NCBI RefSeq assembly: GCF_011038965.1
Contig: NZ_JAAKEB010000013.1
Location: 1-64,000 of the forward strand
Length of the DNA: 64,000 nucleotides
From: Adlercreutzia sp. ZJ141
Lineage (GTDB): Bacteria; Actinomycetota; Coriobacteriia; Coriobacteriales; Eggerthellaceae
Direction of reading: 5' to 3'
In this document: positions 3,182 through 13,383 of the stretch, one piece after another
How positions within the stretch are numbered: position 1 is the stretch's first letter
Layout of the letters: each line of letters begins with the position of its first letter
The notes under the pieces: generated by a model
The model's database searches: none
What the model was told of the DNA's origin: nothing
The model's input: the letters and a program-made list of their open reading frames with translations, nothing else
Translations under genes and position numbers: made by a program

Positions 3182-4486
3182 TTAAAGATACATCACCATA
3201 TAGACGGGCAGATAGAGTATCTTTTCCGCCAACGAGACGTTGCCTTCGCACAGCACCACGGCTTTTTCGATTCGGTAGTTCTGGGAGGACAGCACCTTGG
3301 TCAAGGCGCTATGCCGCTTGTAGCTCTTCCCGCTCTTTACCTCTATGGGAAGAACCTGTCCGTTCCCTGTCTCTATCACGAAATCGAGTTCGCCTATGCT
3401 CTTATTGCGGAAGAACCGCAGTTTATACCCATGGCACTTCAGCTCTTGGGCAACAGCGTTCTCGTATATGGAACCGTAGTTCACCCCCAGCTCGTCGCTG
3501 AGAATGCTCTTCGCCACGTCCACCTCGCTCATTGCGCACAGCAGCCCCACGTCGTTGGCGAACAGCTTGAAGAAGCTCCTTTGCTCGGACATCTTGAGTG
3601 GATGCCTCGGCTCGGTGACGTTGATGACAGGCAACGCCACACCCGCATCCGCCAACCAAACGAACTCCTCGCTGTACCGCTCGTACGTTCCTTTGGGTGC
3701 CAAGCTTGCGAAGCTGAAACGCTTCGACTGCGAATCAAGCTGGGCGGGCAGCTGGTCGTACACGTCTTTGACGACAAGTTTGCTTGTTTCGGCATACTTC
3801 GAAATATCCGCACGATACAGGATAACGATATCGTTTTGGATGCGCTTGACCTCGGCCACGTTGCCGGATCGCGCGAACTCGTCAACTGCCGCCGGCATAC
3901 CGCCCACCAACAGATACTGGTGAAACAGCGAAAGCAGGCGTTCGTGGATGGGCCCGATAACCGAAGTTGACGACTCGAAGCAGCCCCTTACATAGGAGAG
4001 GGCTTCGTCACCTACGTCCAGCGCCCAGCAGAATTCCTCGAAATCGAGCGGGAACATCTCTATCGTCCGCAGGTAGCCAACGGGCTGGGATCTTATATCC
4101 TGCAGCTCAATGCCAAGAAGGGATCCCGACAGAATGAAGTCGTAACCTTCCCTTTGGACGAGGTACTTTATGTAGGTGATCGCCTCCTTGCACTCCTGCA
4201 CTTCATCTATAAACACGCACGTATCGCCAGCGATGAACCGGGAACCACCGAACGCGGACAGAACCATGAACAACTCGTCGGCGTTGCGGCACCCTTCCAT
4301 GGCAGAAAGGAGATCGGGCTGCTCGATGAGATCGAAGCGCACGTAATGCTCGTAGTTGCGGGAAGCAAATTCGTCAACAATGTAGGACTTCCCCACCTGC
4401 CTTGCGCCTGTCACCAGCAACGCACGGCTCGCGCGCGAGCTCTTCCACTCTTCCAGCTGCCGCGTGATCTTCCTCTTGAGAGACAT
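3182..4486 (-). CDS. DUF4143-type AAA ATPase (2), cassette cargo
   Basis: This 434-residue protein has Walker A GARQVGKS (27-34), Walker B VFIDEVQ (91-97), an ILSGSLLG sensor segment (118-125) and a C-terminal DUF4143 region. A nuclease-like GELDFV...IEVKSG pattern lies near 365-386 (E366, D368, EVK 382-384). It is the only gene between the 32-bp inverted repeats. The ATG is preceded by an AAGGAAAG box. The promoter region carries four TTGGAAA(A/G)ATCC motifs in two 46-bp direct repeats, so expression is probably tightly controlled. The role of the family is unknown. Its presence beside an unrelated-sequence paralogue suggests independent acquisition rather than tandem duplication. Confidence 0.9.
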   Translation of the reverse strand: MSLKRKITRQLEEWKSSRASRALLVTGARQVGKSYIVDEFASRNYEHYVRFDLIEQPDLLSAMEGCRNADELFMVLSAFGGSRFIAGDTCVFIDEVQECKEAITYIKYLVQREGYDFILSGSLLGIELQDIRSQPVGYLRTIEMFPLDFEEFCWALDVGDEALSYVRGCFESSTSVIGPIHERLLSLFHQYLLVGGMPAAVDEFARSGNVAEVKRIQNDIVILYRADISKYAETSKLVVKDVYDQLPAQLDSQSKRFSFASLAPKGTYERYSEEFVWLADAGVALPVINVTEPRHPLKMSEQRSFFKLFANDVGLLCAMSEVDVAKSILSDELGVNYGSIYENAVAQELKCHGYKLRFFRNKSIGELDFVIETGNGQVLPIEVKSGKSYKRHSALTKVLSSQNYRIEKAVVLCEGNVSLAEKILYLPVYMVMYL

Positions 4487-4502
4487 AGGCTTTCCTTCTG
4501 TA

Positions 4503-4611
4503 GGATTTTTCCAACCTGATAATCTACGAAAACAGGGATCTTTCCAACCATTCTATCGTCCGTTGGGATTTTTCCAACCTGATAATCTACGAAAACAGGG
4601 ATCTTTCCAAC
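4503..4611. promoter_or_regulatory. two 46-bp direct repeats, four operator-like motifs
   Basis: The units at 4503-4548 and 4566-4611 are identical over 46 bases and offset by 63 bp, close to six helical turns. On the minus strand each unit carries GTTGGAAAGATCC and GTTGGAAAAATCC 33 bp apart, giving four motifs spaced 33, 30 and 33 bp. The array ends about 16 bases before the ATPase start. This looks like a cooperative protein-binding array on the promoter. The 63-bp period is also a codon multiple, and the repeats translate on the same strand as VGKIPVFVDYQ twice, so a peptide-coding explanation is not excluded. Confidence 0.65.
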
Positions 4612-4698
4612 AAGCACGGCAAGTCGCTCCATCACGCAATGTAATGAGCGCGTCAGAAAGCCGCAAGCAGGGTGGCGGGAGACTAGATTGTACGGCTT

Positions 4699-4730
4699 GC
4701 ATGTGACAGAATGACCTGACCCTATTGTCA
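4699..4730 (-). repeat. right 32-bp inverted repeat of ATPase cassette
   Basis: This is an exact reverse complement of 3078-3109. It ends 12 bases before the stop codon of the TlpA-like gene, so the cassette lies tightly between two genes. Confidence 0.95.
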
Positions 4731-4742
4731 TTCGCTCCGCAT

Positions 4743-6439: not shown

Positions 6440-8014
6440 TTACGCCGTAGCACCTTCCTGCGCTGCATCAGCCTCGTGCTCGCTCTCGAGTTCTTTGGCA
6501 TACTCGCGGTCGATCGCGCCCTCAACCGACGGCGGGTTCACGTCGAACGGCACGCTCTTCGTGAACAGGCTCACCACCGGCACAATGATAAGCGACAACA
6601 CCATGGCAATTGCACCACAGTTGATAGGACTTGCGATAAGCGGCGTACCCATGAAACCGAGTAGCATGTTGCCCGTGGTCAGGCTAACGCCCACAATGAA
6701 ACTCACCCACACAGCTGCCTTCGACACCTTGCCGGAGTACAAACCCCACAAGAAGGGCCCCAAGAACGCGCCGGCCAGCGCGCCCCAAGAAATACCCATG
6801 AGCTGGGCGATAAAGGTGATCGACGAATGATATTGCACTAGCGCGATAGCAGCCGACACGGCAACAAACACCAGCAGCAGCACACGCATGTAGCGAATTT
6901 TCTTCTTCTCTTCCATGCCTTTCACAATGTTGCCCTGAATGAGGTCGAGCGTGAGCGTAGATGAACTGGTGAGCACCAGCGAACTCAATGTTGACATCGA
7001 AGCCGACAGTACCAGCACGATAACCAGGCCGATCAGTAAGTCGGGCAGCGTCGACAGCATGGTAGGAACAATGGAGTCATACACCGGCGCTCCGTTGGGC
7101 CCCATTTCAACCTGGCTGCCATACAAACGACCAAAGCCACCTAAGAAGTACGAACCACCCGCAACCACAAACGCGAACAACGTGGAAATAATAGCGCCTT
7201 GTTTTACCGCAGGGCCGCTTTTAATAGCGTAGAACTTCTGCACCATCTGCGGCAAGCCCCACGTACCCAGCGACGTAAGGATAACCACGCCCAGCAAGTT
7301 CAGCGGATCTGGCCCGAACATGCTAATGAACGCGCCTTGCATTTCGGTTCCCTCGGCGGGAATTTGCGAGAGCGTGGTAAGTGCGCCCATGAAGCCGCCG
7401 TTGTCGCCGATAACCACCGCAATAACACCGCTGATGCCCAGCAACATAACAATACCTTGCAGAAAGTCGTTCATAACCGTTGCCATGTAGCCGCCAACCA
7501 CCACATACACGCAGGTGATCAGCGCCATGCCGATAACGCACCATTCATACGGCAAGCCAAACGCCATACCGAACAGACGCGACAGGCCATTGTAGACGCT
7601 GGCGGTGTATGGAATCAGGAACACGAAGATGATAGCCGCCGCGGCAATGCGCAAACCCTTACTGTCATAGCGCTTACCGAAAAACTCCGGCATGGTGGTT
7701 GCCCCCAGGCGGTGCGTCATCTCGCGCGTACGCGGGCCAAGCACCCACCAAGCAAGCAAGCTACCTAAAATGGCGTTGCCAATGCCTGCCCACGTGGCGG
7801 CGATGCCGTACTTCCACCCAAACTGACCGGCATAACCAATAAACACCACGGCGCTGAAGTAGCTCGTGCCGTAGGCAAACGCGCTCATCCACGGGCCAAC
7901 GTTGCGCCCTCCCAAAACGAACCCATCAACATTAGTGGTCGATTGGCGACAGTAAATACCCACGCCAACTGCAACGCCCACGAAAATGAGCACCATGCAT
8001 ATCTTTGCAATCAT
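6440..8014 (-). CDS. sodium:solute symporter (SSS family)
   Basis: This 524-residue integral membrane protein has about 13 helices and the SSS-family layout. The first helix is followed by the TTNVDGFVLGGRNVGPW loop, with sodium-site-like segments such as SAFAYGTSYFSAVVFIG and SASMSTLSSLVLTSSSTL. The family co-transports Na+ with organic solutes such as proline, pantothenate or carboxylates; the substrate here is not identifiable from sequence. The ATG follows AAGGAAAGGAAAAAACGAC. The gene is monocistronic: a terminator of the repeat-protein gene lies just upstream, and its own hairpin lies downstream. The C-terminus is charged and Glu-rich. Confidence 0.9.
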   Translation of the reverse strand: MIAKICMVLIFVGVAVGVGIYCRQSTTNVDGFVLGGRNVGPWMSAFAYGTSYFSAVVFIGYAGQFGWKYGIAATWAGIGNAILGSLLAWWVLGPRTREMTHRLGATTMPEFFGKRYDSKGLRIAAAAIIFVFLIPYTASVYNGLSRLFGMAFGLPYEWCVIGMALITCVYVVVGGYMATVMNDFLQGIVMLLGISGVIAVVIGDNGGFMGALTTLSQIPAEGTEMQGAFISMFGPDPLNLLGVVILTSLGTWGLPQMVQKFYAIKSGPAVKQGAIISTLFAFVVAGGSYFLGGFGRLYGSQVEMGPNGAPVYDSIVPTMLSTLPDLLIGLVIVLVLSASMSTLSSLVLTSSSTLTLDLIQGNIVKGMEEKKKIRYMRVLLLVFVAVSAAIALVQYHSSITFIAQLMGISWGALAGAFLGPFLWGLYSGKVSKAAVWVSFIVGVSLTTGNMLLGFMGTPLIASPINCGAIAMVLSLIIVPVVSLFTKSVPFDVNPPSVEGAIDREYAKELESEHEADAAQEGATA

Positions 8015-8080
8015 GTCGTTTTTTCCTTTCCTTACAAGAACTCAGTTACGCATCGGAGGCGCACACGGCCTTTGCAGGGC

Positions 8081-8113
8081 AAAAAAAATAGCACCGGCAA
8101 AACCCGTGTGCTA
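8081..8113 (-). terminator. rho-independent terminator of the repeat-protein gene
   Basis: On the minus strand AGCACACGGG and CCGGTGCT pair around TTTTG and are followed by A and eight T. The TAG stop codon of the repeat-protein gene is the first triplet of the stem. A terminator placed so exactly at the stop supports that reading frame as a real gene. Confidence 0.75.
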
Positions 8114-8464
8114 ACAATATCGGTAGATCAAATTTGGGGAATTCACGCGCGCACGCACGGATTGCTGAGCCTCGTGCTGACTCATCACGGCGCAAGCGTT
8201 CTCAACGGACTTCTGAGCTACATGCTGCGACATGATGGCGCACGCCACGTCGTCGCTCGTACACTTCTGGGCGACGTGCTGGCTCATCACCGCATTGGCG
8301 GTGTCGAGGGAACACTTCTGAGCGACATGCTGCGACATAATGGCGCACGCAACATCACCTTGCAGGCACGCGGCGGCACGCGCAATCGAAGACGCGCCGT
8401 GCGCGATTCGTGCGATTCGTGCGGTTGCCCATGCGGATGCGGTATGTTTCCAAGCGAATGCCAT
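8111..8464 (-). CDS. small MSQHVAQ-repeat protein, undescribed
   Basis: The protein has 117 residues if it starts at 8464; an in-frame ATG at 8674 would give 187. An Ala/Arg-rich N-terminus is followed by four 16-18 residue repeats with the core (C/N)A(I/V)MSQHVAQK. The repeats alternate in type. Units 1 and 3 read CAIMSQHVAQK with Ser TCG and His CAT. Units 2 and 4 read AVMSQHxAQ with Ser AGC or AGT and His CAC. Repeat offsets are 48, 54 and 51 bp, all codon multiples. TCG and AGC differ at all three bases, so Ser is being kept at protein level. A -10-like TAAAGT lies exactly 7 bases before the ATG at 8464 and no Shine-Dalgarno is seen, suggesting a leaderless start. A terminator begins at the stop codon. 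I do not recognise the family and assign no function. Confidence 0.6.
   Translation of the reverse strand: MAFAWKHTASAWATARIARIAHGASSIARAAACLQGDVACAIMSQHVAQKCSLDTANAVMSQHVAQKCTSDDVACAIMSQHVAQKSVENACAVMSQHEAQQSVRARVNSPNLIYRYC
8162..8353 (-). repeat. four coding repeats (A-B-A-B) of 48-54 bp
   Basis: On the plus strand, units begin near 8162, 8210, 8264 and 8315 with (C)TT(C/G)CTG(A/G)GC. Units 1 and 3 from the left are one type, and units 2 and 4 the other, giving a higher-order period of 102-105 bp. They encode the MSQHVAQ repeats of the small protein. Confidence 0.85.
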
Positions 8465-8811
8465 GCGCACCACTTTATCACAGCAAAGCGATTGCGCAAA
8501 GGCTTTTTTGCTGCGTTCGAGCTGTGTCTGCCGTGTCTGCCTGCTGTGCCGTACCGAGTTCAAGAGTCCAAAGCCACGCTGTGTCTGAGCTGTACCCGCC
8601 GCACCAAACCGTGCTACCATGACGTTTAAGAAAACACTGATTAATTCCACCAGTCCCGCGCTTGCCAAACACACCGCAAGAAACCCCTTCCGAAAGCTCT
8701 TTTTCGGAAGGGGTTTCTTCAGTACTCAGACCAATACCACTGTCAGGGCTCGACACCACTGAGACCGGCGTTACCAGTGACGTCGTCCAAATTCAGCGAC
8801 CAACACCTGCG
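8465..8811. other. intergenic region upstream of repeat protein
   Basis: The stretch holds the putative leaderless promoter of the repeat protein, a dispersed-motif copy (TAAGAAAACACTGATTAATT, 8627-8646) and the strong hairpin at 8678-8719. The reading frame of the repeat protein stays open through part of it, so a longer N-terminus is possible, but its composition there looks non-coding. Confidence 0.45.
8678..8719 (-). terminator. strong hairpin, terminator after paaK-like gene
   Basis: The arms AAGAAACCCCTTCCGAAA and TTTCGGAAGGGGTTTCTT form an 18-bp stem. It lies about 90 bases past the ligase stop on the minus strand. T-rich arms make it nearly symmetric, so it could also block plus-strand transcription. 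Confidence 0.75.
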
Positions 8812-10047
8812 TTAATAGCGGCTGTCGAAAATGCGTTTGGTCTTTTTCTCGGAACGAGGCAACTCGCCCATAGGCACGCCCTTGGCGTCGGGCGTGCAGC
8901 CCAACTTCGCCTTGAAGATCATAGCCAGCTCTTCCTCGCAGCGTGTCTTTTCGTCACCTTCAAGCGGCGTTTCGAACAGCACCGTAAGAACATCCTTGCC
9001 GCTGATGTTTTCGATCATCACCTGATACTCAGAGCTCGCACCATTCGTTACCTGAATGACCTCTTCCACCTGAGCCGGGAACATGTTGCACCCCTTCACC
9101 TTGAACATGTCATCGGTGCGTCCCGTAAGCGTTGCGATGCGCGGATGCTTGCTGCCGCACGCGCAGTCACCGGGAATGATGCGCGTTAAGTCGTGCGTAC
9201 GATAGCGGATGAGCGGCGCGCCTTCCTTCTGCAGCGTAGTGAGCACCAGCTCGCCTTCTTCCCCATCGGGAAGCGGCGCACCCGTTGCCGGGTCGACTAC
9301 CTCGATGTACACATAATCGCTCCAGATGTGCATGCCAGCATGCTCGTCGCAACTGATGCCGATGCCCGGACCATAGATTTCCGTCAGGCCATAAATGTCG
9401 TAAATCTGAATGCCCAGCTCGTTTTGGATGCGGTTGCGCATCTTCTCGCCCCAGCGCTCCGATCCGATAACGCCCTTGCGCAGCTTCAGCTTGTCGCGCA
9501 AACCGCGTGCCTGAATTTCCTCGGCCAGCAGCAATGCATACGAGCTGGTGGCACCGATAACGGTCGAACCCAAGTCTTGCATCATCTTCAGCTGCTTTTC
9601 GGTGTTACCGGGCCCCATGGGAATAGCCATAGCTCCCAGACGCTCGGCGCCCAGTTGGAAACCGATGCCTGCCGTCCACAGACCGTAACCCGGCGTAATT
9701 TGGATGCGGTCGCGATTAGTGATGCCTGCCATTTCGTAGCACCGCGCGAACTGAATGGCCCAATCGTCCACGTCTTTTTGGGTGTAGGGAATGATAACCG
9801 GCGTACCCGTGGTGCCCGATGAACTGTGAATGCGAACTACATCTTCGTCTGGCACCGCTTGAAGTCCCAGTGGATACGCGGCGCGCAGATCGTCTTTTTC
9901 GGAGAAGGGCAGGCGCTCGAAATCCTCTTGCGATTGGATGTCGGTAAGATCGATGCCTTCGAATTTCTTCGCGTAGAAAGCACTTCGCTCTTTTAAGGTG
10001 GCAAATTGCTTCTTTAGCAGGGCAAACTGCTCGGTGGTTAACTGCAT
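8812..10047 (-). CDS. paaK: phenylacetate-CoA ligase family enzyme
   Basis: This 411-residue adenylate-forming enzyme carries the PaaK-type phosphate loop HSSSGTTGTP (74-83), a YGLTEIYGPG segment and a YRTHDLTRI segment. It activates an aryl-acetate with ATP and CoA. The protein is somewhat shorter than the usual 430-440 residues, and the missing part appears to be N-terminal. It lies 240 bases downstream of iorB on the same strand. IorAB makes aryl-acetyl-CoA from aryl-pyruvates, so the ligase could run in the direction of acyl-CoA use with ATP formation, or activate free acids. AAAGAGGTTCCC precedes the ATG. The exact substrate is unknown. Confidence 0.88.
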   Translation of the reverse strand: MQLTTEQFALLKKQFATLKERSAFYAKKFEGIDLTDIQSQEDFERLPFSEKDDLRAAYPLGLQAVPDEDVVRIHSSSGTTGTPVIIPYTQKDVDDWAIQFARCYEMAGITNRDRIQITPGYGLWTAGIGFQLGAERLGAMAIPMGPGNTEKQLKMMQDLGSTVIGATSSYALLLAEEIQARGLRDKLKLRKGVIGSERWGEKMRNRIQNELGIQIYDIYGLTEIYGPGIGISCDEHAGMHIWSDYVYIEVVDPATGAPLPDGEEGELVLTTLQKEGAPLIRYRTHDLTRIIPGDCACGSKHPRIATLTGRTDDMFKVKGCNMFPAQVEEVIQVTNGASSEYQVMIENISGKDVLTVLFETPLEGDEKTRCEEELAMIFKAKLGCTPDAKGVPMGELPRSEKKTKRIFDSRY

Positions 10048-10287: not shown

Positions 10288-10947
10288 CTATTGTAGGCTA
10301 AAGTACTGCTGTTGCAAGCGGCTTTTCACGATAAACCACGGGCACTCTGTGGTGTGTTTCTCCACAACGGTGTCTACTGCGCGTAAGTTCATGTCCACAA
10401 ATTTCGGTTTCACGCACAAAGAGATGGCGCTTTTCAGCTCGTCAATGGTAATAGGCACGCGACCTTCCGTAATGGCGCAAGCCAAAAGCACCATGTTGAG
10501 CACTTTGCTACTGCCGATTTCATGAATAAACTCCGCTTCATGAACAATCGAGAGCGCTTGATCGGCGATCATTGCACGATCAATACCGACAAGCACATCA
10601 TTTGCCCGATACGGTTCCTTCGACAACGCAGCGGTCACCGGCTGAATGGCAGTGACGGCGGTCACCAGCAAACCGTCGGTTGCCAGATACGGCAGCACGC
10701 GTGCCGCCTCTCCCGGTTCGAACGCGATAATCAGATCAGCGGTTCCCGGAAAGATCAGCGGCGCGTGCACCATTTCGCCATCGTTTCCCATGCGTACGTG
10801 CGACACCACGCTGCCGCCTCGTTGTGCCATGCCGATGGTTTCCGCCGTGCGCACATGCCAGCCCTTGCTCTGCGCCGCCTGAGCCAACACTTTTGCCGCT
10901 AGCACCGTGCCCTGGCCGCCCACACCTGTCAACAGTATGTTGATCAT
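10288..10947 (-). CDS. iorB: indolepyruvate:ferredoxin oxidoreductase, beta subunit
   Basis: The 219-residue protein begins MINILLTGVGGQGT, the gamma-domain signature of 2-oxoacid:ferredoxin oxidoreductases. With IorA it oxidises aryl-pyruvates from Trp, Phe or Tyr to aryl-acetyl-CoA and reduces ferredoxin. The ATG overlaps the iorA stop as ATGA and is preceded by GGAGGAACCCG, so translation is coupled. This rules out a longer upstream start inside iorA. There are 240 bases of non-coding sequence before paaK; I see no clear terminator in it. Confidence 0.93.
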   Translation of the reverse strand: MINILLTGVGGQGTVLAAKVLAQAAQSKGWHVRTAETIGMAQRGGSVVSHVRMGNDGEMVHAPLIFPGTADLIIAFEPGEAARVLPYLATDGLLVTAVTAIQPVTAALSKEPYRANDVLVGIDRAMIADQALSIVHEAEFIHEIGSSKVLNMVLLACAITEGRVPITIDELKSAISLCVKPKFVDMNLRAVDTVVEKHTTECPWFIVKSRLQQQYFSLQ

Positions 10948-12887
10948 CGGGTTCCTCCTTCTGCTGGCGCAATCGCATCGAACGGGCACACTTGCACGCA
11001 CAACCCGCAACCGTCGCACAGCGTTTCGTTCACAAGCGCCTGACCTCGATCTTTGCTTCGTGCGCCTGTCGCATCAAAGTCAAAGCCAATGGCGGGACAA
11101 CCGATCTCGGTAATGCACTTTTTGCAGCCCGTGCACGCTTCTGTATTAATGTGTACCGCCGGATCGGGCTTTTTCAGCTGAATGCACGGCGAACGGAAGA
11201 TGATGGCGGACGGCCCTTCGAAATCGATCGCCTCGCGCGCCGCCGCTTCCGCTTCCGCAAGATTTAACGGATCGGCGAATGTGATGCATTCCACACCTAT
11301 GGCACGCAGCACGCCTTCGATGCTTACCGGCTTGCGCTTGTGGCCCATGAGCGTGACGCCCGTGCCAGGGTGCGGCTGCGAGCCGGTCATGGCAGTGGTT
11401 GCGTTATCCAGCACCGTAACCGTGATGTCGTGCCCGTTATACACTGCATTCACAATGCCGGTTAGACCGCTCGCGAAGAAGGTAGAGTCACCCACAAACG
11501 CCACATGCTTCTTATGCGGCTCTGCCACAGCGAAGCCTTGCGCCATAGTAATGCCCGCACCCATGCACAAACACGTGTCCACCGCGTCGAGTGGCTTGGC
11601 ATTGCCCAGCGTGTAACAACCAATGTCACCGCACAGTACCGCATCGCGCTTGCCAAGCGCACGCTTCACCGCGTAGAAGCTGCCGCGATGTGGGCATCCC
11701 GCACAGAGCACTGGTGGGCGCACGGGCAGCGCGTCGGGATAGCGGGTAAGGGCAGATTTGTAGGTAAACTTCTTGACCAGCGACTCGAAAAAGCAATCCT
11801 CTTTGTCGAAGAAGTGCGCCAATCGCATGATAATGTCCTCGGTGGAATTCTCGCCGCGGTCGCTCGCATCGCCCGTGAGTTTGCCACGTACCTCAACCGA
11901 CAAATGACGCGTGCCTGCAAGCTTTAGCAGCTCGTCTTCAAGCACATAATCGAGCTCTTCGAACACAATTATTTCGCTGAGTCCTTCAGCGAAGCGCGCA
12001 GCAGCATCTGTAGGGAACGGGTAGGGCGTGCCTACTTGCATGAAACGATACGCCGGCAACGTCTCACCCATTTCTCTGGCAAGACGATCCAACAGCGAAA
12101 GCGCTTCGCGTGCATATGCAGCAGACACACCGCCCGCAACCACGCCAAACCGTGGACGTTCGGACGTGTTGCCGTCTTCTGTCACAGGGTTGAACTGCAC
12201 AAACGACAGATCTTCGCTGAAGTCGCGCGCTATGTCGCGCATACGCTGATTGATTTCACCATGCGCTTCGAAACTGCGTCGCGGGAAAATGACCCAGCGC
12301 GGGTCTTTCTCAAAACCTCCTTCAGGCACGTCAAGTGCTTGGGTTTCCGCCGGTACGTCGAAGAACGTGGATGCATGGCAGATACGCGTGGTGGGGCGCA
12401 CAATCACCGGCGTGCCGTAGCGCTCCGACAGCTCAAACGCCGCACGCATCATAGCAGCGCCTTCTTCGGGTGTGGAAGGATCGAGCACCGGCACCTTCGC
12501 GAATGAGGCAAAGCGACGCGTGTCTTGCTCGGTCTGCGACGAAATAGGACCAGGATCATCCGCCACAAACAGCACTGTTCCACCGCGCACGCCCACGTAA
12601 TTCAGCGACATCAGCGCATCGCTCGCTACGTTGAGCCCCACCTGCTTGCAGGTGAACAGCACACGAGCACCGCAGTACGCTGCGCCCGCAACAAGTTCCA
12701 GCGCCGCTTTCTCGTTGGTGGACCACTCTACGTGCACGCCATGCGCCACACCTGCGTCATGCAGCTTCGCCACCGTTTCGATGAGTTCAGACGACGGCGT
12801 ACCCGGGTATCCTGCCACCACGCGCACACCCGCTTCCAGCGCCGCCCACGCGAACGCCTCGTTACCCATCAGCAGTTTCTTCGCCAT
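10944..12887 (-). CDS. iorA: indolepyruvate:ferredoxin oxidoreductase, alpha subunit
   Basis: This 647-residue protein has an N-terminal pyrimidine-binding domain (GYPGTPSSELIET, near residue 28), a C-terminal thiamine-diphosphate domain with CGDIGCYTLG, and two [4Fe-4S] cluster motifs at the end (CTGCKKCITEIGC and CDGCGLCVQVCP). It catalyses CoA-dependent oxidative decarboxylation of aryl-pyruvates in amino acid fermentation. The ATG at 12887 is preferred because GGAAGAGGAACGT precedes it and the protein then begins MAKKLLMGNEA as in relatives. A longer open frame runs into purE. The gene lies 25 bases after purE and is coupled to iorB. Confidence 0.95.
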   Translation of the reverse strand: MAKKLLMGNEAFAWAALEAGVRVVAGYPGTPSSELIETVAKLHDAGVAHGVHVEWSTNEKAALELVAGAAYCGARVLFTCKQVGLNVASDALMSLNYVGVRGGTVLFVADDPGPISSQTEQDTRRFASFAKVPVLDPSTPEEGAAMMRAAFELSERYGTPVIVRPTTRICHASTFFDVPAETQALDVPEGGFEKDPRWVIFPRRSFEAHGEINQRMRDIARDFSEDLSFVQFNPVTEDGNTSERPRFGVVAGGVSAAYAREALSLLDRLAREMGETLPAYRFMQVGTPYPFPTDAAARFAEGLSEIIVFEELDYVLEDELLKLAGTRHLSVEVRGKLTGDASDRGENSTEDIIMRLAHFFDKEDCFFESLVKKFTYKSALTRYPDALPVRPPVLCAGCPHRGSFYAVKRALGKRDAVLCGDIGCYTLGNAKPLDAVDTCLCMGAGITMAQGFAVAEPHKKHVAFVGDSTFFASGLTGIVNAVYNGHDITVTVLDNATTAMTGSQPHPGTGVTLMGHKRKPVSIEGVLRAIGVECITFADPLNLAEAEAAAREAIDFEGPSAIIFRSPCIQLKKPDPAVHINTEACTGCKKCITEIGCPAIGFDFDATGARSKDRGQALVNETLCDGCGLCVQVCPFDAIAPAEGGTR

Positions 12888-12912
12888 ACGTTCCTCTTCC
12901 GTCGGCAAAACC

Positions 12913-13383
12913 TTACGCTTGCGCCATGGCCGCCTTGTAATCGATAATTTTCTGACGCGCTCCCTCGCAACCGGTTCCCATAATTTGAACCGCCAAAATG
13001 GCTGCATTCTTTGCGCCGTTGATGGCAACACACGCCACCGGCACACCACTTGGCATCTGCACCATAGACAGCAGCGAGTCAAGCCCGCCCAAATCAGACG
13101 TTTTCATGGGCACCGCAATAACCGGGCACGGCGTGTACGCAGCAACAACGCCGCCCAAGTGCGCGGCCTTTCCCGCAGCGGCAATGATCACGCGAATGCC
13201 GCGCTCGTGTGCCGTGCTGGCCCACTCGTGAACCTCAGCGGGCTTGCGATGGGCGCTAGCCACCTTCACCTCGTAAGGCACACCGAAATCATCGAGCTGT
13301 TTCATGCACGCTTCCATGACCGGCATGTCAGATTCAGACCCCATGATGATGCCAATATGCGGATTATTTCCAGAACACGACAT
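12913..13383 (-). CDS. purE: N5-carboxyaminoimidazole ribonucleotide mutase
   Basis: The protein has 156 residues with the class I PurE signatures MGSESDMPVM and SAHRKPAEVHEW. It moves the carboxyl group of N5-CAIR to C4 in purine synthesis. The start at 13383 is supported by AGGAGAAAAC; an in-frame ATG 18 bases upstream has no such box. No purK or other pur gene is adjacent; purB is 17 kb away. Its place at the head of an aryl-pyruvate operon is odd and may only reflect shared transcription. Confidence 0.95.
   Translation of the reverse strand: MSCSGNNPHIGIIMGSESDMPVMEACMKQLDDFGVPYEVKVASAHRKPAEVHEWASTAHERGIRVIIAAAGKAAHLGGVVAAYTPCPVIAVPMKTSDLGGLDSLLSMVQMPSGVPVACVAINGAKNAAILAVQIMGTGCEGARQKIIDYKAAMAQA

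Follow-up and report, generated by a model that had tools for sequence, protein, structure and literature searches.

A reading frame with a conserved tyrosine-rich end, probably a leader peptide gene, precedes a sodium:solute symporter gene in Eggerthellaceae

In Escherichia coli, a ribosome held at the tnaC stop codon protects the adjacent RNA from termination upstream of an aromatic amino acid permease, TnaC being a ligand-induced arrest peptide that works with Rho. The nearest described counterparts of the locus reported here are the aromatic-codon leader aroR of Corynebacterium glutamicum, which carries Phe-Tyr-Phe before the DAHP synthase gene (PMC11802643), and the leaderless cysteine uORFs of mycobacteria (PMC4633059). 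For the tyrosine genes of Actinobacteria, a survey from 2005 identified no RNA regulatory elements (PMC1262725), and our literature search retrieved no paper on the Eggerthellaceae leader described below.

The window analysed is a stretch of 64,000 nucleotides from Adlercreutzia sp. ZJ141 (contig NZ_JAAKEB010000013.1, positions 1 to 64,000). On its minus strand, an open reading frame of 117 codons plus TAG (8111..8464) runs from an ATG at 8464 to the stop at 8113-8111. The initial annotation had presented this frame as a small repeat protein. Much of that description stands, namely a translated and selected frame with its own -10 element and terminator, but the product is not best seen as a stand-alone protein, and the emphasis on repeats was misplaced: these occupy the variable central part of a leader ORF that is linked to a single downstream gene. 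From comparison of related loci, we consider it fairly probable that the ORF encodes the leader peptide of a cis-acting attenuator located before an SSS-family symporter gene and probably sensing tyrosine.

The reading frame, its repeats and its relatives

Four repeat units lie in the frame, CAIMSQHVAQKC (unit 1, 8312..8347), NAVMSQHVAQKC (unit 2, 8261..8296), CAIMSQHVAQKS (unit 3, 8207..8242) and CAVMSQHEAQQS (unit 4, 8159..8194), all on the minus strand. The annotated count of four MSQHVAQ units is right, but only three are exact and the fourth reads MSQHEAQ; MSQH(V/E)AQ covers them all. The offsets between units are 51, 54 and 48 bp, all multiples of three, and the alternation of codons is as claimed, with Ser encoded by TCG/AGC/TCG/AGT and His by CAT/CAC/CAT/CAC in units 1-4. 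The A-B-A-B arrangement drawn from this alternation is only partly explained by a clean duplication of an A-B dimer: 4 of 36 nucleotides separate A1 from A2, whereas 12 separate B1 from B2, a divergence equal to that of A/B pairs. Simple dimer duplication was thus rejected as the full cause, B1 and B2 being too different. Pairwise comparison of the units gave pN values of 0.03-0.25 against pS values of 0.43-1.03, a bias toward synonymous sites calculated on few sites and consistent with the protein-level selection previously claimed from the repeats.

That selection was also recovered between species. Over the whole ORF, dN/dS is about 0.25 between congeners (pairs within 12 genera, which are not independent, making the value descriptive). 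In repeat-bearing genera it amounts to 0.58 in the first 12 codons, 0.18 in the middle part containing the repeats and 0.35 in the last nine codons; the corresponding values in genera without repeats are 0.27, 0.29 and 0.16. Such strong protein-level selection on repeats is unusual for a leader peptide, and we know of no counterpart of a tandem repeat selected in this way inside one; why a leader should contain such a repeat is a question that the locus raises. Across leaders, the repeat follows the consensus [CR]-A-[VL]-[MA]-S-x-H-x-A-[QA]-Q, with third codon positions free. Metal binding through the C-x5-H-x4-C arrangement of the units was considered and rejected, the Cys being replaced by Arg or Leu and the His by Arg or Val in many units. 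Structure prediction returned an all-helical peptide of low confidence (pLDDT 73, pTM 0.33) and without a defined fold. In line with the annotation, no family was found for it: three leader peptides searched against Pfam and NCBIfam yielded nothing above cut-off, and a stand-alone protein family was discarded as the identity of the ORF on this ground. Rfam covariance models gave only chance-level matches in region 7500-9000.

A contig scan with the leader as query found no match, probably because the query is too divergent, and a second scan with the symporter as query yielded 77 named loci, in Adlercreutzia, Gordonibacter, Eggerthella, Slackia, Parvibacter, Senegalimassilia, Ellagibacter, Rubneribacter, Enteroscipio and others. 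With the downstream symporter as an anchor, the upstream regions of about 98 of the symporter loci in the family genomes were read, and most of them contain a short ORF ending in [Y/F]-R-Y-(x)-stop, with or without repeats (for example, MNFGEGHIAHTVASAATDVFSAPLYYYYSYRYL followed by the stop codon in Ellagibacter). Searching 138 family genomes brought up convincing relatives of the leader in many genera, and most Eggerthellaceae genomes having the symporter gene also have the leader; with homologous frames in dozens of species, the ORF is more than a product of chance. Many species and genera keep the leader without repeats, retaining its RY-stop end along with hairpin and promoter. Outside the family, the 3' pattern described below turned up in four genomes of the class; in three of them the leader stands before the same symporter.

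Conserved elements and genomic context

The constant part of the 82 distinct leaders is the C-terminal [Y/F]-R-Y-(x)-stop, not the repeat. Tyr accounts for 34.7% of the final nine residues against 0.6% elsewhere, with up to six Tyr among these nine positions in some leaders and a single one in 15 of the 82. The Arg codon is CGA in all 82, although the adjoining symporter and PaaK genes seldom use CGA (1 of their 35 Arg codons); just ahead of this Arg stands Tyr in 62 leaders and Phe in 15, and atypical ends are represented by one IYR-stop and one SDRYF-stop. The alignment was anchored on CGATA, so that leaders without CGATA would have been missed, and a few symporters had no anchor. In every aligned leader, the frame is kept and the stop codon lies 1-3 codons past CGA. 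On the sense strand, [YF]RY(x)stop occurs in 75 of 96 upstream regions, compared with a mean of 0.36 in mononucleotide shuffles; the antisense control gave 14 regions, the CGATA motif being near-palindromic. In the window, this 3' element reads TAC-CGA-TAT-TGT-TAG-CACACG (8105..8125, minus strand), that is, Tyr-Arg-Tyr-Cys-stop running into the hairpin. As a nucleotide motif, CGATAY-N4-RGCAC keeps a fixed spacing though the position of the stop shifts. The stricter TAYCGATAY-N4-AGCACRYG has matches in 65 of 137 family genomes, a single one in all but two, and its reversed control had no hits; in one of these two (G040), the second match falls at the end of a contig and resembles the opposite edge of the same locus, and the other genome is G085, treated below. 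One clade (L149, L152-L154, L157-L160 and L162) has a long conserved end, P(M/I)SRRNDA(Y/F)(T/S)(A/S)IYYYRY, which resembles an arrest-peptide motif.

At the other end of the ORF, the -10-like box that had been noticed 7 bases before the ATG is a TAAAGT (8472..8477, minus strand), and relatives share it: TGNTAAAGT-N6/7-ATG is kept across 56 aligned leaders. A TAAAGT placed only 6-7 nt before the ATG leaves no room for a Shine-Dalgarno sequence, and the conserved arrangement suggests that the mRNA is probably leaderless, starting at or next to the ATG. Inside the ORF, 17 nt from the A of the ATG, lies a second 5' element, ACATA (8443..8447, minus strand). The base preceding CA(T) is A in 53 of 56 leaders while the encoded residue varies, which argues for a constraint at the nucleotide level. 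The combined pattern TAAAGT-N6/7-ATG-N14-ACATA occurs in essentially one copy per genome, at the leader locus, with zero control hits.

A terminator starting at the stop codon had also been claimed, and it is indeed present: the first bases of the hairpin (8089..8113, minus strand; -13.2 kcal/mol, z -4.2) are the TAG itself, and the stem is followed by a T8 tract (8081..8088, minus strand). A simple terminator scan missed this hairpin, probably owing to its bulge. In an alignment of 20 sequences, compensatory changes were seen at the two basal pairs. When a U-tract was scored as at least 5 within 50 nt, the leader of the window had an intrinsic terminator with U-tract, as had 36 of 82 leaders; in these U-tract leaders, the hairpin lies on the stop codon and has a mean z of -3.6. 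The other 46 have a hairpin-like sequence without U-tract, weaker relative to shuffles (mean z -0.9); in these, termination must be Rho-dependent or the regulation must be different, and Rho may do the terminating. Repeats and U-tract go together, since 33 repeat-bearing leaders have a U-tract and one does not, against 3 with and 45 without among the other leaders; the lone exception (L028) looks like a false positive of the repeat pattern. The genomes being related, this association could reflect few evolutionary events. A conserved pairing of an antiterminator with the 5' arm of the hairpin was sought in 37 leaders and none was found (mean z 0.01, 2 below -1.65).

The presumed regulated gene, encoding an SSS-family sodium:solute symporter (6440..8014, minus strand; Pfam SSF, 3e-54), begins 96 nt past the leader stop. 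Its ortholog gives a strong match in 119 of 137 family genomes, nearly always single, and the leader supplies a substrate hypothesis for this single-copy protein, which probably imports tyrosine or another aromatic amino acid. Upstream of the leader, also on the minus strand, are genes for a PaaK-like aryl-CoA ligase (8812..10047; TIGR02155, 4e-115, below the equivalog cut-off) and for the beta (10288..11019; NF005325, 1.5e-44, below cut-off) and alpha (10944..13082; TIGR03336, 665 bits, above the cut-off of 650.9) subunits of an indolepyruvate ferredoxin oxidoreductase (IOR); the listed start of the alpha ORF may be too far upstream. A PaaK gene in the same orientation precedes the leader and symporter in about 30 of the 77 named loci. 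In four genomes, there is no separate leader and PaaK itself ends in FD(S/N/D)-R-Y-stop with the same 3' element. At L065, L066, L077, L082, L147 and L171, a PaaK C-terminus with CGATAY...AGCACATGGG was observed to stand in for the leader before the symporter. A strong inverted repeat at 8678-8719 (GAAACCCCTTCCGAAAGCTC / GCTTTTTCGGAAGGGGTTTC), which gave spurious miRNA matches, is probably a bidirectional terminator that separates PaaK from the leader promoter. Elsewhere in the window, an ORF on the minus strand (4411-4731), beside an ATPase-like gene, contains a direct repeat, GTTGGAAAGATCCCTGTTTTCGTAGATTATCAGGTTGGAAAAATCC, in two copies (VGKIPVFVDYQVGKI).

Aromatic amino acid synthesis begins with DAHP synthase, and in genome G085 a gene for this enzyme is preceded by a second complete leader, with 5' and 3' elements and the end PPSFYFFTYRYR-stop; this leader (FYFFTYRYR-stop; L181, around 1032-1192) lies about 110-160 nt before the gene. 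Other DAHP synthase genes in the family have no such leader. The G085 copy is the strongest pointer to the sensed compound, and it comes from a single genome.

A proposed switch and its alternatives

We propose that the leader works as follows. Ribosomes would load at the 5' end of a leaderless mRNA beginning at the ATG or directly beside it, translate through the repeats and arrive at [Y/F]-Arg(CGA)-Tyr-(x)-stop. If translation and release were fast, the hairpin would form and transcription would stop. A ribosome held at the last Tyr codons or at the stop, most likely by a shortage of charged tRNA-Tyr, would shield the 5' arm of the hairpin with its footprint; RNA polymerase would then read through and the symporter would be made. 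As the stop codon is part of the stem, a ribosome standing there would hide the 5' arm, its footprint having been put at about 26 nt (PMC13236596), and the lack of a conserved antiterminator favours such direct masking over a trp-type switch. Two findings argue against pure codon counting: a codon counter would be expected to keep several Tyr codons, where 15 of 82 leaders have a single one near the end, and counting leaves unexplained the lower dN/dS of the repeat part (0.18) relative to the end (0.35). One might speculate that, in the genera with an intrinsic terminator, the nascent tandem helices co-sense, for example through ligand binding or a pull on the ribosome, as a built-in second sensor beside the Tyr codons, an idea that we regard as tentative and rather unlikely.

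The main rival is an arrest peptide of the TnaC/SpeFL type, in which the nascent peptide would stall the ribosome at RY-stop when the ligand, an aromatic amino acid or a product, is plentiful, the symporter being induced together with aromatic breakdown; the direction of the response would then be opposite to that of shortage sensing. The fixed peptide end with its fixed CGA codon, the protein-level constraint far upstream of the C-terminus, the longer conserved ends found in one clade (PMSRRNDAYTAIYYFRY, for instance), the catabolic neighbours IOR and PaaK and the lack of a U-tract in over half of the leaders, like the Rho-controlled tna operon, are all in line with arrest. The copy before a biosynthetic DAHP synthase gene, on the other hand, suits starvation logic better, and the presence of as many as six Tyr within nine residues resembles codon sensing; we consider this reading unlikely, though worth keeping in sight. 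A small helical protein acting in trans or on the symporter, its adjacency reflecting a functional partnership, would fit the strong purifying selection on the repeats, the ORF's own promoter and terminator and the low-confidence all-helical model. We nevertheless find it improbable: many genera keep the leader without repeats, what stays constant is the nucleotide elements and the RY-stop end, the stop codon itself carries the hairpin, and in four genomes the end of PaaK substitutes for the leader. Also conceivable is a structured RNA or DNA operator, either a riboswitch or a protein site at CGATAY...AGCACAYGGG plus ACATA, with translation being incidental; both motifs are conserved at the nucleotide level with fixed spacing. 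This is very improbable, given that the frame and a stop 1-3 codons after CGA are always retained, that dN/dS is about 0.25, that 27-117 codons of variable sequence separate the motifs and that region 7500-9000 has no Rfam match above chance level.

Comparison with known leaders

Eggerthellaceae (Adlercreutzia, Gordonibacter, Eggerthella, Slackia, Senegalimassilia and others) are medically interesting gut bacteria with few known regulators, and the attenuator that we favour, if true, would be a family-wide control switch for a putative aromatic amino acid transporter. As in E. coli trpL and pheL, amino-acid codons in the Eggerthellaceae leader are followed by a predicted terminator, but no alternative antiterminator hairpin was detected. 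Like tnaC, it lies upstream of a transporter, here a predicted aromatic amino acid transporter, and a hold at the stop codon is proposed here. With aroR of C. glutamicum, the leader of aroF, it would share the make-up of an actinobacterial leader peptide with aromatic codons before an aromatic amino acid gene (PMC11802643); it differs from aroR in that its main target is an SSS transporter, that no antiterminator was found and that it is long and repeat-bearing, with a YxYRY-stop end and a hairpin on the stop codon. The leaderless cysteine-rich uORFs of mycobacterial cys genes place a C-terminal cluster of a single amino acid before genes for that amino acid (PMC4633059, PMC1262725), an arrangement that the probably leaderless frame described here would resemble. 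The Eggerthellaceae leader, by contrast, has Tyr instead of Cys, is longer and repeat-bearing and, in the genera that carry the repeats, is followed by a recognisable terminator.
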